Shown here: positions 55,770 through 64,000 of the stretch, piece after piece | Numbering within the stretch: the first letter of the stretch is position 1 | Layout: each line of letters opens with the position of its first letter | DNA from: Verrucomicrobiota bacterium | GTDB taxonomy: Bacteria; Verrucomicrobiota; Verrucomicrobiia; CAIQCK01 | Assembly (NCBI GenBank): GCA_016235595.1 | Contig: JACRJX010000029.1 | Coordinates: 248,001 to 312,000 of the forward strand | Direction of reading: 5' to 3' | DNA length: 64,000 nucleotides | Translations under genes and position numbers: made by a program | Notes under the pieces: model-generated | What the model was told of the DNA's origin: nothing | The model's database searches: none | What the model saw: only the letters and a program-made list of their open reading frames with translations

Positions 55770-57471
55770 CCTCACAGCCATCGTGGTCGTGGGGCTGGCA
55801 CTCGGTTTTGTCGGCATCGGTTGGGGCTTGCCGTCGGCGCGACGCGTGGCGTTGCTCGGCGAAAGCCTGACGCAGTCCCGTGCCGCGCTTGCCGCACGAA
55901 CTTCGCGCGAACTGGAAACGCGGCGCGACCACGCAGCCATTCTTGCGGCGCAGCCCGCCGAGGAACGGATCGATCTGCCGCGGCTGGTGCGGCGTTACCT
56001 GATGTTCTCCGATTCGCCGGACGAGCCGCTCACGCTGCTGGCGCTGGCGAAGATGCGGCCGCGTCAGTTCGACTTCAACCCACGCATGGTTGAATACGGC
56101 GGTCTGCACGTCTACGGCACCGGCGCGGTGATGACACTGGCTCATGCGCTTGGCTTCGGCCACATTGCAGGTGATGTCTCTCACTACGCCGACCATCCCG
56201 AGCACATCGCTGGACTCTATCTCGCAGGCCGGTTGCTCATGGTGCTCTACAACGTCGGTATCGCCGTGCTGTTGTTCCTTTTCGCCAACAGCCTCGGCGG
56301 CGAAAATGCAGCATCCAGAACATCACCCCCCCAATGGGTGGGTGTTGCCGCGGCATTGATGTGGCTGCTGTCACCGCCGTCGCTTGGGTTCTCGCACATC
56401 ATCAACCCGCATCTGCCGGCGGCCTTTTACGGAACGCTGGCGGCGTGGCTGGCTTGGCGGGCGGCGACTGTGGCGGGTACGCGTTGCTGGTTTGGCGCAG
56501 CAGCAGCGAGTGGCGCGGCGGCGGCGTGCGCGCTAAATGCAGCGGTGAGTTTCCTTGTGCTGCCGGCAGTGGCGTTTTGCACTGCACACGCCGCAGAAAA
56601 AACACTGAAGCCTGAGTCCCAACAAACTGGCGGTTGGAGTTCGGGTTTCAGGATGTTCTCGAAGCTCTGCGCTGTCGTGGCACGTCCGTTGGGGTTGGCG
56701 CTGTTGATGGCGGCGGCATTCTATCTGGCGTTGAATCCCTACTGCCTTGCCAACCTCGACGTGCTGCGCGAGGAACTGGCGCGTTTCCGGCAGTTTCGTT
56801 CGCCGCTGCCGGATGTGGGGAGCATTGTTATGTTTTGCGGTGGGCCATTGCCGCACGCCATCGGCGTCGTCGGCTTGGGTGCGACGCTTTTTGGTGCGGT
56901 GACGTTGTGGCAAGCTTCCAGCGGGGGCCGCGCGCTGGTGAGCTACGCGGTGGCAGGATTGTTACTCAGCGCGTGGCTTGCTGGTTCGGATGCGAGCGAG
57001 GCGCTGAGCGTCCGCTTCGCGATGTTCATACTGCCATTGCTGTGCGTGTTCGTCGCAGTGGCGCTGACCGGTCCGTGGCCGCGCTGGTCGCGAGTCGGCG
57101 CGGCGGCGCTCATCGCGCTGGCGGCGGTCAGTGCGACGGCGGTGCATTTGCCGAGCCTTATGCGTTCGCCGCGCGACAACGCGGGAGAATTCATCAATCG
57201 CACACTGCCGACGGGCAGCGCGGTGGCCGTGCCGAAATCGCCAGGGCCTTACGAGATGCCAGCGTTCGACTTCGTCCGGCTGCGGCTCGTCACCGATCCG
57301 AAAGCGCCGCACGAATTCGCGGTGCAGGTGGAGGACAGCAAGAAACCGGCGATACCGGCCGGGTTTGAGTTGATGGCCGGTTTTCCCGACGCGCGCGTGC
57401 AACGGCCGACCCCGCTGTCGTTCTCAGGCCGGTTCGCGCGGATTTACCGTCGCACGGCCTCTCACCAATAG
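55747..57471 (+). CDS. GT-C fold/GT39-like multi-pass membrane protein
   Basis: The protein is 574 residues with about ten membrane helices. The N-terminal helix has LSLTAIVVVGLALGFVGIGWGLPS, then a long periplasmic loop with FDFNPRMVEYGGLHVYGTGA, as in dolichyl-phosphate-mannose-type transferases. It begins inside the previous gene, suggesting they form a pair. The acceptor is unknown. A C-terminal soluble domain of about 90 residues ends with ...FAQ-like IYRRTASHQ. Confidence 0.72.
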   Translation: MKTKSWLSLTAIVVVGLALGFVGIGWGLPSARRVALLGESLTQSRAALAARTSRELETRRDHAAILAAQPAEERIDLPRLVRRYLMFSDSPDEPLTLLALAKMRPRQFDFNPRMVEYGGLHVYGTGAVMTLAHALGFGHIAGDVSHYADHPEHIAGLYLAGRLLMVLYNVGIAVLLFLFANSLGGENAASRTSPPQWVGVAAALMWLLSPPSLGFSHIINPHLPAAFYGTLAAWLAWRAATVAGTRCWFGAAAASGAAAACALNAAVSFLVLPAVAFCTAHAAEKTLKPESQQTGGWSSGFRMFSKLCAVVARPLGLALLMAAAFYLALNPYCLANLDVLREELARFRQFRSPLPDVGSIVMFCGGPLPHAIGVVGLGATLFGAVTLWQASSGGRALVSYAVAGLLLSAWLAGSDASEALSVRFAMFILPLLCVFVAVALTGPWPRWSRVGAAALIALAAVSATAVHLPSLMRSPRDNAGEFINRTLPTGSAVAVPKSPGPYEMPAFDFVRLRLVTDPKAPHEFAVQVEDSKKPAIPAGFELMAGFPDARVQRPTPLSFSGRFARIYRRTASHQ

Positions 57472-58124
57472 CCCCACTTGCCGCTCGCCAGGATGTAGCA
57501 CGCCAGCAGCAGGTTGGTGACGGCGTGAGCGATGATGCAGGCCCAGAGCGACCGGGTGCGGTAATAGATCCAGTTGTAGAGCACGCCGGTGATCATGCCG
57601 ACGTGCCAGAGGGTGTTGTGTTCGATGCCGAACATCAGGACCGTGATGCCGAACGATTCCCACGTGAATGTGCCGAGCGGCACGCTGCGAAAATCCGGCT
57701 TCACCAGCCAGCGAATCATCCAGCCGCGCCAGAACAGCTCTTCCATGATGGGCACCACCAGCACCGCACCGGCGATGCGAAAACACGTGGCCAGCGTGGA
57801 GCATGGAGCCGGGAGCACGGTCGGGTTGAAACCGCCAACGGTGAAATCGGTCTTAGTGAGACGCAACAGTTCCGGCGCAACCCAAATGACAAGTGCGGCA
57901 ACGCCAATCAGCGCACCGAACAGCGCGCCCCGTCGCTCGCGCAAGTCGTCGCGCACGCCACGCCACGCCCAGACCAGCGCTGCTGCGACGGCGACCGTCT
58001 TAAGCGGGTAGAGCAAAAACACTGATGCGACGCCGGCCTGTTCCATCATCAGAAACACGAGGTACACCACAAAGGGCGCGACGTAAGCGGCTGCCGGGTG
58101 TCTGACTTGTTTTTGATGGGCCAT
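57462..58124 (-). CDS. CPBP/CAAX membrane protease, exosortase-associated type
   Basis: The protein is 220 residues from ATG 58124 (58139 is the track start). It has about eight membrane segments. The catalytic EE pair is in PIMEELFWRGWMIRWL near residue 128, with His in FGIEHNTLWHVG and a second in LWACIIAHAVTN. The sequence around DFRSVPLGTFTWESFG and the final YILASGKWGYW resemble TIGR03008, the CAAX-like family tied to PEP-CTERM/exosortase systems. The substrate is unknown. It converges on the GT-C gene with a ten-base overlap. Confidence 0.82.
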   Translation of the reverse strand: MAHQKQVRHPAAAYVAPFVVYLVFLMMEQAGVASVFLLYPLKTVAVAAALVWAWRGVRDDLRERRGALFGALIGVAALVIWVAPELLRLTKTDFTVGGFNPTVLPAPCSTLATCFRIAGAVLVVPIMEELFWRGWMIRWLVKPDFRSVPLGTFTWESFGITVLMFGIEHNTLWHVGMITGVLYNWIYYRTRSLWACIIAHAVTNLLLACYILASGKWGYW

Positions 58125-58676
58125 GATTCTTCGCCACACATTCTAGCGATGCCGGCCGCAAAGAAACACCAAAAGTTGAAGAAGCGTCCTCTTTGACCGG
58201 ACTCGGGAGAGTGGCACGCGGGTGACAGTTGCTCTTGGCGCACGAGGCAATAGGCACACATCGGTGTGATGGCAGGTTTGGTGTTGACGGTCAGGAACAT
58301 CAGCGTAGTCTTTGCGCTGGTGGGTTTATGAAGTTGTACAATGGAGTCCTTGGGAAGTGGGAGCTCTTCTGGCGATGGGGCGCGGTGGATGCAAGCTCGC
58401 CCGTCTCATCCACCTGCCGAAATCAATGTTCCTATCAGCTGCTAACAGCAGTTTTGAGAGCGGTATGAAACTGCAAAACACCCGGCCTTGAACACTCCCG
58501 CAAGGATTGACCGCGTGAAACCAACCCATCCACCCGATCAACAATGGCGCAAGATCACACGGGCCATCTCCGGCGCTGTTGGCGAAGTCGTAACCGCGTA
58601 ACAAACTGAATCACAGTCGTCAGCCTTACAGCATCCGATCCAGAAACCTGTGCCATCGGCCAGATTGGAGGAAGCC
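58125..58676. other. Non-coding gap before the patatin gene
   Basis: This gap of about 550 bases holds no tRNA, repeat or convincing ORF. The only notable item is a 28-codon GTG frame (58515-58601) with AAGGA eight bases upstream, which may be chance. No clear promoter was found. Confidence 0.6.
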
Positions 58677-61600
58677 ATGAAGAACAATGAGGAGGTCAGG
58701 GATTTTAGGAAACTTGTTAAAAAGGAGCGCGATGCGTTGAATGCCGCGCAAAAGAAAACCGCGGAGGCAGAGAAAAAAGCATGCAAGGCGCCGGAGAAGG
58801 GCAACGACAGACCGTTGGGCGACGCCGAGGGGACGGAATGCGTGGTTTCCACTTCGGGCTGCGCGGAGGAACCGTGGGTGACTTTCACGACGGATGACCG
58901 GGTGGGGCTGGCCTTGTCGGGCGGCGGCATTCGCAGCGCCACATTCAATTTGGGCCTGCTACAGGCGTTGAATGAAAAGGGAGTCCTGAAACAGGTGGAC
59001 TATCTCTCGACGGTGTCGGGCGGAGGCTACATCGGCGGGTTTTGGACGCGGTGGTGGCAGGCCGTTTCAGAAAAAAAGCCGGAGAAGGCCGGTCAAGTAA
59101 AAGACTTTCCCCCACCCACGGAGAAAGATGACGGCACGGCGGTGAAGACGCCGAAGGAAATCCCGGAGCCGGCGGCGATCCGGCACTTGCGCGAGTTCAG
59201 CCGGTTCTTAATCCCCCGCCAGGGTCTGAACATGGAGTTCTGGAGCGCGGCGATCACGGTTCTATGCGGAGTGGTGACGTCGTTAGTCGCGGCGCTGGCG
59301 ACGGTGCTCTTGGTGATGGCACTGTGGGCGTTGTTGGCCGCGCAGATGATTGAATATCGCCCGTTTGGGAACGGCGTTATTCTCGCCGTTGTCGTCCTCG
59401 CCGTGTTCGGGGCGTCGGAATTGGTTTCACGACGAGCGGACGAGTCTGAGGTTGCACCGTCCATGCGCAAGACTTTCAAAAGATGGCGTCGCTTCTGGGC
59501 GTCAATGGCGGTGGTACTTACGGGTGCGTTTTGGGGTCTGACCACGCGGTGTTTTGCCAAAGAATTGGAAACCAGCTGGCAATGCCTGTTGCCCGAGTCG
59601 GGCGCGATTCTGTTCGTGCCGTGCATGGTTCTTGCGGGATCGCTTGCCGTGTTGACGATCACACGATTGTGTTGGGAACGCTTCAGAAAAGAACACGATA
59701 CTGAAAAACGAGGCAGACACATTGCACGCGCTGCGGCCTTGGAGCAGGTGATGGGGCGTTTGCTGGCCGTCCAGGTGGCGTGGGCGGTCATGGCCGGTGT
59801 TTGGGCGCTGGCCCAATGGCTGAAACAGAAAGCAGGTGACGGGAGCTTCACCGGGGTCGGAGGCACAGGGACGTTAACGGCCGTGCTGACGATGTTCTTT
59901 GTTTGGACGCGGGACTGGCTGACCCAACCCAAAAAGGAGGCGCGCTACGAGAAGTTCTTGGATAAGCTGAAACCCTGGGTGCCGCAACTGCTGGCCAACG
60001 GCATCGTGGTGTTATTGTTCGTGCTGGCCGCCGTGTACATCCTTGGCTGCAGTTCGGCAGGTGGCAACTGGCTTGTGTTCTGGATTCTGCTGGCATGTTT
60101 GGGCGTGTTGGGTCTTGTGGTGTTGCTCTTCGACCCAACGAGGGTGGGGATGCATGAGTTCTACCGCGCCCGGCTGACGAGATGCTACTTGGGCGCAAGC
60201 GAACGCGCTGAGCCAGAGGACCAGGGGTCAGCTGCGCCACGCGACCGGACGTCAGTAGAACACTCAGATGACGATATGAGGTTGCACGATGACAATGGCA
60301 ACCCCATCCACCTGATCTGTTGTGCGGCCAACCATTTGTGGGGAGATCTGATGAGCACGCTGCATCGCGGTGCGCGCAGCGCGGTCTTGTCGCGCCACGG
60401 CATCGCGATAGGCAATTGCTGGATTGAGGACAACGACCTGTGGCTTTCCGCTGCCTTGACGGCTTCGGCCGCGGCATTCAATTCGCTGATGGGCGAACGG
60501 AACATGGAGTTGGGACGGGCTGTGGCATTCGTCATGACGACGTTGAATTTGCGGCTGGGGTTGTGGGTGAAGAACCCAGCCAACTGCAAGCATCATGACC
60601 CCGAGGGCAGAAAACTGCCATCGCGGCGCACGTGGTTCCCTGGACTGTTCTTCTTCAAGGAGATGTTTGGCATGGCCCAATGCCGCACCGACAAGCACGC
60701 CGCGGCCTACATGCACCTTTCGGACGGCGGCCACTTTGAGAATCTTGCGCTCTACGAATTGATTCGCCGCCACTGCCGATACATCATCGTTTCCGACGCC
60801 GGGCAGGATCTGAAGTTCGACTTCACGGACTTTGGGCGGGCCGCGCGCCGGGTGCGCGAGGATTTTGGCGTGGAGATCGAGATCAATCTCACGCCACTAA
60901 AGCCTGATGCGGACGGACTCTCCAAGCAACATCTTGCCGTGGGAACCATCCATTACAATGGCGTGGAAGGCGCCGACAAGGGCACCATCGTTTATTTCAA
61001 GCCCACCTTGGTGGGCGACGAGCCGCCGGACGTGCAGCAGTATCGGCGGCGCGAACCGAGCTTTCCTCATGAAACGACCGGAGACCAATTCTTCGACGAA
61101 GCTCAGTGGGAATCCTACCGACGCCTTGGCGAACACATCTGCCACGCCAGCTTGAGGATGATCAAGCGACGCGCGTTCATATCCTCCCATGATCTGTTTC
61201 GCCAGATACGCTTGAATTGGTATCGCGTGCCGTGGATGCAAGGCGACGGCGGCATCCGGCTCTGCGAGCACGCGGCCGCTTTGGAAAACGCATTGCGCGA
61301 ACACGACAATCCAGCGCTGCGGCGGGAGTTTTTCGGAGACATGCTCAGTGCTGCGCCTGTCAGCCCAGCCGCGAATGCCGGGACAGCCCCAGCCGCTGCC
61401 GTCGGGCAAACTGCCAGCGACGTGTTGATGGCCATTCGTGCCTTGAAGTTCATGGAAGAGGCGTGGCTGATCTGTGAGCTTGACGACTATTGGTCACATC
61501 CTCTGGCCAACAACTGGATGGCTTGCCTGCATCGTTGGGCTGCCATGCCGACGGTGCGCCACTGGTGGCCTCTATTGACGCCGTTGTTCGGCACGGATTT

Positions 61601-62147
61601 CCAGAACTTCGCCAGAGAGACATTGAAGCTGCCATCGCTTGGACCTGACCGTGTCGCTCTGAAACTCGTGCTCAATTCAGTCAAAGGCAATTTCGTTCCC
61701 GAGGACGGTTTTGCCTGGCGGCGCTTTCAAGAGTGCCAGCCCAACTTCAAAGTGGGCCAGTATAATACACTTTTCAGCCTCGATCTGACTCTGCCAGCCA
61801 CAGGTGCTTCCGCGGCCTTGACCATCCAAGTCGGCTTGGCGTTCCTACGGTGTAACGGCTCGGTTGCGCGGTGGGACATTGACGATTTGTTTATCCCGCC
61901 GGAATTGCATTGCGGCGGCTTCACCACCAGGCTGCTGGATCTGTTGATCAAGCATTTCATGGGACAGAAGGGCGTGATGCCCAACCCCATTGTTCGTCTC
62001 GAAGTTTCAATCGAGCCCTCGCTCCGCGATCAGGCTGCGCGGCAGGAGCAGATCGAGCTTATTGATTTCTATAGAAGCCGGGGCTTTAAGTTCGTCGGCA
62101 CAACATGCGGCAATGCAAAGAACAACTGCATGGTTCGTTTGATCTAG
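58677..62147 (+). CDS. Patatin-like phospholipase with central multi-TM block and C-terminal GNAT-like domain
   Basis: The protein is 1156 residues. ATG 58677 has GGAGGAAGCC just upstream. An N-terminal charged coiled segment (LVKKERDALNAAQKKTAEAE) leads to the patatin motifs: LSGGGIRSATFNLGLLQAL near residue 81 and the nucleophile in STVSGGGYIGG near 114. About eight membrane helices (residues 185-485) are inserted before the second half, where the catalytic Asp sits in LSDGGHFENLALYEL near 682. The final 130 residues resemble GNAT (LHCGGFTTRLLDLLI and IDFYRSRGFKFVG). Patatins cleave phospholipid acyl chains; membrane insertion between the catalytic halves is unusual, and GNAT at the end more so. 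Codon use matches neighbours. Confidence 0.83.
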   Translation: MKNNEEVRDFRKLVKKERDALNAAQKKTAEAEKKACKAPEKGNDRPLGDAEGTECVVSTSGCAEEPWVTFTTDDRVGLALSGGGIRSATFNLGLLQALNEKGVLKQVDYLSTVSGGGYIGGFWTRWWQAVSEKKPEKAGQVKDFPPPTEKDDGTAVKTPKEIPEPAAIRHLREFSRFLIPRQGLNMEFWSAAITVLCGVVTSLVAALATVLLVMALWALLAAQMIEYRPFGNGVILAVVVLAVFGASELVSRRADESEVAPSMRKTFKRWRRFWASMAVVLTGAFWGLTTRCFAKELETSWQCLLPESGAILFVPCMVLAGSLAVLTITRLCWERFRKEHDTEKRGRHIARAAALEQVMGRLLAVQVAWAVMAGVWALAQWLKQKAGDGSFTGVGGTGTLTAVLTMFFVWTRDWLTQPKKEARYEKFLDKLKPWVPQLLANGIVVLLFVLAAVYILGCSSAGGNWLVFWILLACLGVLGLVVLLFDPTRVGMHEFYRARLTRCYLGASERAEPEDQGSAAPRDRTSVEHSDDDMRLHDDNGNPIHLICCAANHLWGDLMSTLHRGARSAVLSRHGIAIGNCWIEDNDLWLSAALTASAAAFNSLMGERNMELGRAVAFVMTTLNLRLGLWVKNPANCKHHDPEGRKLPSRRTWFPGLFFFKEMFGMAQCRTDKHAAAYMHLSDGGHFENLALYELIRRHCRYIIVSDAGQDLKFDFTDFGRAARRVREDFGVEIEINLTPLKPDADGLSKQHLAVGTIHYNGVEGADKGTIVYFKPTLVGDEPPDVQQYRRREPSFPHETTGDQFFDEAQWESYRRLGEHICHASLRMIKRRAFISSHDLFRQIRLNWYRVPWMQGDGGIRLCEHAAALENALREHDNPALRREFFGDMLSAAPVSPAANAGTAPAAAVGQTASDVLMAIRALKFMEEAWLICELDDYWSHPLANNWMACLHRWAAMPTVRHWWPLLTPLFGTDFQNFARETLKLPSLGPDRVALKLVLNSVKGNFVPEDGFAWRRFQECQPNFKVGQYNTLFSLDLTLPATGASAALTIQVGLAFLRCNGSVARWDIDDLFIPPELHCGGFTTRLLDLLIKHFMGQKGVMPNPIVRLEVSIEPSLRDQAARQEQIELIDFYRSRGFKFVGTTCGNAKNNCMVRLI

Positions 62148-62449
62148 CGCGTTAGGTCATGGATTCCGCTCGCTCGGCCTGTGCAAAGGACGATCGAGAA
62201 GCGCGGCTCCTTGATTGACCGTGAAGGGATGTGCGGAAAACATGGTTCCAGCCCCGGTGATATTTCCCATCCGTATCCTTCAAGCCCTTCCTGAACCCAA
62301 AGCCGAATGGTTCATAAACTGCCTCCGCATCGCTGTTCATCTGCGGCCCACAACACGTGCTTTACATGATACAGCGGCGGGCGGAGAATGGCCCCGAAGT
62401 CGTACGTGGAAGGAATGAGAGGTCGGAGGCAGGAGGAAATGCGAGGAGA
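62148..62449. other. Non-coding gap before the ankyrin gene
   Basis: About 300 bases with no convincing gene. A 62-residue minus-strand frame (62152-62340) has no family match that I know and no RBS. No strong promoter is seen; AGGAGGAAATGCGAGGAGA directly before ATG 62450 gives a strong RBS. Confidence 0.55.
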
Positions 62450-64000
62450 ATGAAGACGATCCGCCAAACACTGCTGCTGTTGCTGGCGGGAATTCTTGGA
62501 ACAGTGGTTGCGGTCTTTGCCCTGAAAACTGTTCGAACCGTTCTGATGTATCGCCACGGCGGCGGTGGCAATGCGTGTGTGCACTATCAGCGACTGCCGA
62601 TACTCGATGAAGCGGAGGCAAAACCGATTTTGGACCGCGCCATCCAGCGGATTCATCAACGTCTCATTCAAGCCGGGGATCATTTGCCAGCGCTGTCGGA
62701 AATCAGCGAAGCAGACATCGCGGGATTCTGCCTCGCATATCGGAAGGGGAATGCCTTCGGCAGCAGGACGGGCAAGCGTGTCTTTGAACCGCCGGATTCT
62801 TGTCGTCTATCCCTGCAAGCAGAATATCCGTTCGGGGAGTCGCCGATGTCGTCAATGGCGCCAACCAAGAAGTATTCAGTGGAGGGGGAAGGTTTTGCTT
62901 ACGGCGCAGAGCTCGAGGTGGCCTCAGACAAGGACGAGATCCACGGGATCATTGAGCAAGAGATGGATCGCGCCGCCGGGGAACTTCAGAAGGCCGCCCG
63001 GTCCAAGGCGCTCAAGGCAGGAGAGGAGATCCACATCGCCGTCAGAGTTGGCGACGTGGCCAGGGTGGAACAACTTCTGGCTGCCAAACCTGAATTCGCG
63101 AATGCCAGGGACAGCCGCGGTTATACGCCGCTGCATTGGGCAAGAGACCCGGGTGTTGCGGAGCGGTTGCTCGCGAAGAGTCCCGATGTCAACGCGGCCG
63201 ACACGCTCGGTCTCACGCCGCTGCACTGGGCGGTTTATGAAGACCGTTTCGAGGTCGTGAAAATGCTGGTGGCGCACGAGGCCGACATCAACCGCAAAGC
63301 CAGCGGCGGCTGGACGCCGATGAGCCTCGCCGAGGAACTATGTGGCGAAGGCGGACGAATCACGCGTTTCCTTCTTCAGCACGGTGGGGTCTCTGAAATT
63401 CCAGATGCGAAGTTGAGTTACGTCATCAAACATCCAACAACACCGGACTTGAAACGCGTGTTCCAAAGGCGGCCCGATGTTGTCACCTGGAAGGACGAGC
63501 ATGGCTGCACGGCACTGCACTACGCAGTGGGCTCACGCAATATACAAATCGTGGAGTTTCTTCTGGCCGCCGGCGCCGGGGTCAACGTCAGGGACAACTC
63601 CGGACGCGCGCCCCTGCTGTATGCAGCGGCCTCGCGCGATGTGAAAGTGGTGGAACTGCTGCTGGCTCGCAAGGCTGACGTCAATGTCAGAAACGAGATG
63701 GGCGAGACGCCGCTTGATCTCGCAGAACGGGTTGGTCCACCCGAGGTCGTTGACCTGCTTCGGGAATGCGGCGCGATAAGTGGAGCCGGTGCCATTCACG
63801 ATGCTGTGGGTCGGGGGGATATGGCCAGGGTGAAAGAGTTGTTGAGTTCCCAGCCGGCGCTTGTGAATGAGAAAGACTCTTCGGGTTGGTCGCCCGTTCA
63901 CCAGACATTGAATCGGAATCAACAGGAGATGTTGAGACTGCTGCTGGATCACAAGGCCGATGTCAACGCCAGGACTCCTCAGGGTGAGACGGCGCTTCAT
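62450..64000 (+). CDS. Membrane-anchored ankyrin-repeat protein, 3' end outside the window (not in the ORF track)
   Basis: The frame runs from ATG 62450, with GCGAGGAGA upstream, to the last base with no stop: 517 codons. It is missing from the ORF track because it is open at the edge. A hydrophobic N-terminal segment (TLLLLLAGILGTVVAVFAL) is a signal anchor. From about residue 190 ankyrin repeats are clear: DSRGYTPLHWA, DTLGLTPLHWAVYEDRFEVV, DEHGCTALHYAVGSRNIQIV, DNSGRAPLLYAAASRDVKVV, NEMGETPLDLAERVG and DSSGWSPVHQTLNRNQQEML. Ankyrin repeats bind partner proteins. It follows the patatin gene by about 300 bases on the same strand. The role is unknown. Confidence 0.85.
   Translation, partial: MKTIRQTLLLLLAGILGTVVAVFALKTVRTVLMYRHGGGGNACVHYQRLPILDEAEAKPILDRAIQRIHQRLIQAGDHLPALSEISEADIAGFCLAYRKGNAFGSRTGKRVFEPPDSCRLSLQAEYPFGESPMSSMAPTKKYSVEGEGFAYGAELEVASDKDEIHGIIEQEMDRAAGELQKAARSKALKAGEEIHIAVRVGDVARVEQLLAAKPEFANARDSRGYTPLHWARDPGVAERLLAKSPDVNAADTLGLTPLHWAVYEDRFEVVKMLVAHEADINRKASGGWTPMSLAEELCGEGGRITRFLLQHGGVSEIPDAKLSYVIKHPTTPDLKRVFQRRPDVVTWKDEHGCTALHYAVGSRNIQIVEFLLAAGAGVNVRDNSGRAPLLYAAASRDVKVVELLLARKADVNVRNEMGETPLDLAERVGPPEVVDLLRECGAISGAGAIHDAVGRGDMARVKELLSSQPALVNEKDSSGWSPVHQTLNRNQQEMLRLLLDHKADVNARTPQGETALH

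Follow-up and report, generated by a model that had tools for sequence, protein, structure and literature searches.

How a single bacterial protein could carry the two catalytic parts of a phospholipase on either side of a block of membrane helices, and what such a protein might do with a further C-terminal domain resembling GNAT enzymes, are the questions raised by one gene in the window, that is, the whole stretch of 64,000 nucleotides of verrucomicrobial DNA analyzed here. On the forward strand, positions 58677-62147 form a single uninterrupted ORF of 1156 amino acids with its stop at 62147, as read directly from the sequence; an in-frame GTG at 58650 is a possible alternative to the ATG that follows the Shine-Dalgarno-like element listed in table 1. 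Upstream, on the opposite strand, lies the gene for a CAAX-type (Rce1-like, CPBP) membrane protease (57462-58139), while downstream on the same strand a long ankyrin-repeat protein (62357-64000) whose N-terminal region has a hydrophobic helix runs past the edge of the window; its counterpart in L128 has 832 amino acids.

Catalytic Motifs and Superfamily Membership

The preliminary description recognized a patatin in the N-terminal region from the GGGIR motif and a serine near position 114, and our analysis bears this out. Pfam Patatin matches residues 78-128 with 30.7 bits against a curated cut-off of 27.7 (E 4.5e-7), this being the sole Pfam match of the protein above a curated cut-off, and a search of NCBIfam with the whole chain gave no match. 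The GGG, the Arg and Ser114 are present in all 43 aligned sequences, with the fourth position of GGGIR varying between I, V and L. The second catalytic residue was correctly identified as an Asp but lies at position 683 rather than 682; together with Gly684 it is retained in 44 of 44 sequences, the third residue of this DG[GA] motif being Gly in 43 and Ala in one. Overall, the residues that are invariant or nearly so in the family alignment comprise the GGG, R86, S87, S114, G115, G116, D683, G684, N689, D707 and D729.

The nucleophile elbow has the form TXSXG, in which the first Gly of GXSXG is replaced by Thr in 42 of the 43 sequences and by Ser in the other. Ser114 is found in a strand-Ser-helix elbow (strand 109-112, helix 115-133) within the high-confidence part of the AlphaFold model. 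Textbook patatins (PNPLA) have the exact GXSXG motif (PMC12871566), from which the TVSGG of the window protein deviates, and membership is therefore claimed for the patatin/cPLA2 fold superfamily only. We assign the protein to this superfamily on the Gly-rich motif, the nucleophile elbow, DG[GA] and a patatin-like fold assembled from the two halves.

Table 1. Position of the features discussed in the text (coordinates of the window, except for the last row)
Feature	Residues	Position	Strand	Evidence or remark
Shine-Dalgarno-like GGAGG		58667..58671	+	5 bases upstream of ATG 58677; read directly in the sequence
Whole ORF	1156 aa	58677..62147	+	Membrane-split patatin core, then helical and GNAT-like tail
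GGGIR, Gly-rich oxyanion-hole motif	82-86	58920..58934	+	Pfam Patatin; GGG and R in 43/43 aligned sequences
TVSGG, nucleophile elbow with Ser114	112-116	59010..59024	+	Ser114 in 43/43
Eight predicted membrane helices	184-484	59226..60128	+	Hydropathy, family mode of 8, AlphaFold helices, positive-inside loops
Second half of catalytic core, including D707, D729 and the signature DQFFDEAQWESYRxLG	about 530-822	60264..61142	+	44-sequence alignment; pLDDT mostly >90 in 680-830
DGG with catalytic Asp683	683-685	60723..60731	+	D and G in 44/44
Helical part of tail	about 822-985	61140..61631	+	HPxxxxWM...RWA..P..R.WWP kept in five tails
GNAT-like domain	about 1022-1156	61740..62144	+	Pfam GNAT matches in three relatives, profile-profile score 32.7, beta/alpha order
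GNAT motif A-like DDLFIPPELHCGGFTTRLLD	1069-1088	61881..61940	+	CoA loop degenerate
GNAT motif B-like FYRSRGF	1131-1137	62067..62087	+	Tyr kept in 4/5 tails
Cytochrome c, GMC and patatin loci		L070:8270-12306, L079:3401-7837, L080:323-4779, L027:2642-5785, L125:1555-5373

Membrane Helices and Structural Model

The separation of the catalytic parts by about eight membrane helices, as initially proposed, is upheld by hydropathy, by the AlphaFold model and by the charges of the loops. Seven 19-residue windows between S114 and D683 exceed the hydropathy threshold (shuffled sequences give a mean of 3.1 and a maximum of 7), the eighth span (about 270-296) being weaker by this measure, and AlphaFold builds eight long helices at 184-484. 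Lys and Arg number 7, 4, 4, 6 and 5 in the putative inside loops and 1, 0, 0 and 0 in the outside ones, an alternation that would put both catalytic pieces and both termini in the cytoplasm.

The full-length AlphaFold model, built from 44 sequences, has pLDDT values mostly above 90 at residues 80-130 and 680-830, of about 45-76 in the membrane part and of 23-64 in the tail; modeling of the full chain, suggested earlier as a check, thus gives confident catalytic halves but too weak a tail to establish a GNAT fold. In a fold search, the best PDB match of the model is human cytosolic phospholipase A2 (cPLA2, group IVA/IVD; PDB 1cjy, 5iz5), with E 1.4e-4 over 412 columns but a low TM-score (0.17/0.29) and a sequence identity of just 12-15%, followed by PlpD and then by VipD and ExoU, the latter two weakly. 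Because these are the best solved matches, the fold carrying the Ser114-Asp683 dyad is most likely of the patatin/cPLA2 type, with the variant elbow TVSGG. The dyad Ser and Asp of cPLA2 are about 320 residues apart, hence distant in sequence as in the window protein; cPLA2, however, is a soluble enzyme that includes a C2 domain, and no membrane-helix bundle separates its dyad residues. The Gly-rich loop and nucleophile region of PlpD, VipD and ExoU also align with the window protein (PlpD with 37% identity over 51 columns), whereas these proteins are secreted or located in the outer membrane and have compact patatin domains lacking an inserted membrane bundle.

Distribution of the Membrane-Split Core

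Relatives of the core were collected by scanning genome contigs, and the best 80 of 187 encoding relatives were retained. Among these 80 the matches stop between about residues 815 and 856, with the exception of L001, and their hosts belong to Pseudomonadota, Acidobacteriota, Gemmatimonadota, Planctomycetota, Myxococcota, Verrucomicrobiota and other phyla. Plasmid-borne relatives are annotated as 'patatin-like phospholipase family protein'. Since the Ser-Asp spacing is 483-730 residues in all aligned members and eight is the most frequent count of hydrophobic spans between the dyad residues (44 of 90), the split by membrane helices is, judging from these alignments, a trait of a widespread family and not peculiar to the window gene. 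Members of this unnamed family from Proteobacteria and other phyla share with the window protein the core (74-821), with GGG[IV]RS, TVSGG, about eight spans, DGGHFEN and DQFFDEAQWESYRxLG. Unlike it, many of them stop where the core ends, and many Variovorax/Lysobacter-type members bear a different tail of ~400 amino acids, the GNAT-like tail having been found in a verrucomicrobial clade only. No characterized member and no biochemistry of this branch were found in the papers searched; literature searches, with most subscription journals outside their reach, likewise returned no account of a split patatin combined with such a tail.

The ~400-residue tails of the Variovorax, Pseudomonas and Lysobacter type (L003:10218-11462, L026, L043:10302-11540 and L077) are unassigned, often contain one extra hydrophobic span and gave no Pfam match in those scanned. 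They were considered as homologues of the window tail and rejected, BLAST finding no relationship.

Relatives in another branch are associated with GMC oxidoreductases. A complete GMC protein is fused ahead of the membrane-split patatin core in two Planctomycetes and one Verrucomicrobium (L027:5844-10625, L047:5748-10517 and L125:5425-10569), and a separate GMC gene adjoins the core gene in L070, L079 and L080. At five of these six loci (table 1) the neighboring gene encodes a RoxA-like cytochrome c with two CXXCH motifs, which suggests that cytochrome c, GMC oxidoreductase and patatin form a recurring three-part module.

Extent and Origin of the C-Terminal Extension

Beyond the family core, the window protein continues for 335 residues (822-1156). 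The same order of domains was sought in other genomes, as had been advised, and the tail was found in four further verrucomicrobial proteins, namely L001 (partial), G124/L116, G475/L136 and G468/L137. The window tail is about 27-33% identical to the other four, which among themselves reach up to 43%. Across the phylum, 388 genomes were searched; the core was present in 20 of them and the tail in two, G124 and the genome that contains the window. Among 150 genomes belonging to G124's family, three full-length tail bearers were found, G124, G468 and G475. The phylogenetic tree of the core places the four full-length tail bearers in one clade together with the tail-less L117, with 100% support, and the simplest reading of this topology would be that the tail arose once. 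L117, which may have lost the tail or never had one, is a core relative within the same clade, and the tail is therefore dispensable. In combining patatin core and GNAT-like tail, the protein represents a domain arrangement that is new for a known, uncharacterized family.

The helical part of the tail weakly matches L157 (G645 C147:12018-12251; E 3.8e-4), a membrane-anchored protein of 193 amino acids that has the W/HP motif in common with it and was found in one of the 286 genomes searched.

The GNAT-Like Domain

Both motifs on which a GNAT-like end had been proposed, CGGFTTRLL (1079-1087) and FYRSRGF, are present. The loop corresponding to the acetyl-CoA signature Q/RxxGxG/A reads HCGGFT, NGAGIS, YGAGFT, VGGGIM and KGCGFT in the five tails, so that only the central Gly is kept throughout, with neither the initial Q/R nor the final G/A conserved. 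Because motif A retains this Gly only, ordinary binding of acetyl-CoA appears doubtful, and acyltransferase activity of the tail seems improbable. The earlier pairing of an acyl hydrolase with an acyl transferase consequently survives in its first half, the membrane-split hydrolase being backed by invariant residues, topology and fold, and is doubtful in its second, with the CoA loop degenerate in all five tails.

These residues also bear on whether the protein is a bifunctional enzyme, in which the patatin core would free a fatty acid or lyso-lipid and an active GNAT would re-acylate or N-acylate the product, completing a remodeling cycle within one protein. Both domains would be cytoplasmic, four of the five tails keep the motif B Tyr and all five keep the central Gly in motif A, and other family members are fused to or lie beside a GMC oxidoreductase, all of which would agree with two linked activities. 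Given that neither end of the acetyl-CoA loop is conserved in any tail, and that the sister protein L117 dispenses with the tail, we regard such an enzyme as unlikely.

The fold itself can be considered apart from activity. Pfam GNAT models match three of the five tails at the same place (E 0.017, 0.11 and 0.19), all under their curated cut-offs, the best score being 15.9 bits against a cut-off of 27 (Acetyltransf_7, tail of L137); the window tail itself gives no match to them. A profile-profile comparison of the five tails with 12 GNATs of the same genome scored 32.7 (E 3e-4 for one comparison) in the expected register. The highest control scores were 12.7 among 60 column shuffles and 18.5 among 28 other families, and the reversed profile gave 11.9; as a null the other families are rough, since they include some wrong-frame ORFs. 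The predicted succession of strand, strand, strand, helix, strand, helix, strand and strand is that of GNATs, though model confidence is low. The tail might instead be an unrelated alpha/beta domain resembling GNATs by chance, as would be consistent with the failure of every tail to reach a curated GNAT cut-off, with the tail-only model (from a two-row alignment of the window and L001 tails), whose pLDDT is about 35 and whose fold matches all fall short of significance, and with the lack of any PDB match for the five-tail profile. The coincident Pfam matches, the profile-profile score standing clear of its controls, the order of helices and strands and the several GNATs among the low-scoring fold matches of the tail model make this quite unlikely.

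The last ~135 residues thus resemble the GNAT superfamily (Acetyltransf_7, Acetyltransf_CG) in motif A- and B-like sequences and in strand/helix order, and differ from it in their sub-threshold scores and degenerate acetyl-CoA loop. We consider a GNAT-derived fold probable for this segment, and likewise its GNAT identity, which rests on sub-threshold profile matches; the initial claim is sustained to this extent by the profile-profile score and the three Pfam matches, but not by a score above a curated cut-off or by a confident model. KCTD1 was rejected as an identity for the tail, its Pfam match (E 0.093) being found in one relative and covering residues 55-90 of the tail, which do not belong to the GNAT-like part, and its fold match deriving from a low-confidence model.

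Proposed Mechanism and Role

We propose, with a probability of roughly 0.72 for the explanation as a whole, that the protein is an inner-membrane acyl hydrolase of patatin/cPLA2 fold with a split Ser-Asp site and an accessory GNAT-like module. The N-terminal piece with the Gly-rich motif and Ser114, and the piece past the eighth membrane helix with Asp683, would both lie on the cytoplasmic side and there come together as a single Ser-Asp active site next to the eight-helix bundle. Through this bundle, phospholipids, lysophospholipids or neutral lipids may enter sideways from the inner leaflet as acyl ester substrates, which would be cleaved to release a fatty acid, leaving a lyso product. The cytoplasmic tail of one verrucomicrobial clade would add a helical module and then a divergent domain of GNAT fold, whose most likely role is to bind an acyl-carrier, another ligand or a partner and so to regulate or couple the hydrolase. 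Lipid remodeling or turnover would be a plausible function. Comparison of loci favors a metabolic rather than toxic role for the core, because it is fused to or lies beside GMC oxidoreductases, with cytochrome c at five of six loci.

A variant in which the GNAT-fold domain is an active acyltransferase using a donor other than free acetyl-CoA (e.g. acyl-ACP), joined once in Verrucomicrobia to the split-site phospholipase, is distinctly unlikely in our judgment; if true, this single protein would form a complete acyl-recycling machine at the inner leaflet. Patatin domains are used by the toxins ExoU and VipD, which are among the weak fold matches, and by CapV-type defense effectors, but the toxic effector of the preliminary description, or a defense protein acting on membranes, is rejected as highly improbable, since a PADLOC search gave no match up to E 1, no phage homologue was found, inspection of the five tail-bearing loci revealed neither a common gene neighbor nor an immunity gene, no hydrophobic signal was seen at the N-terminus of the 1156-residue protein, and the core has eight conserved membrane helices and is widespread across phyla.

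The inner-membrane hydrolase proposed here would represent a large branch of membrane patatins, annotated in many phyla, in which the active site is split around an eight-helix bundle, and would provide a bacterial example of a membrane-embedded cPLA2-type enzyme. Its core recurs in combination with other modules, the GNAT-like tail in this clade and GMC oxidoreductase elsewhere, and these associations offer testable hints to its substrates.
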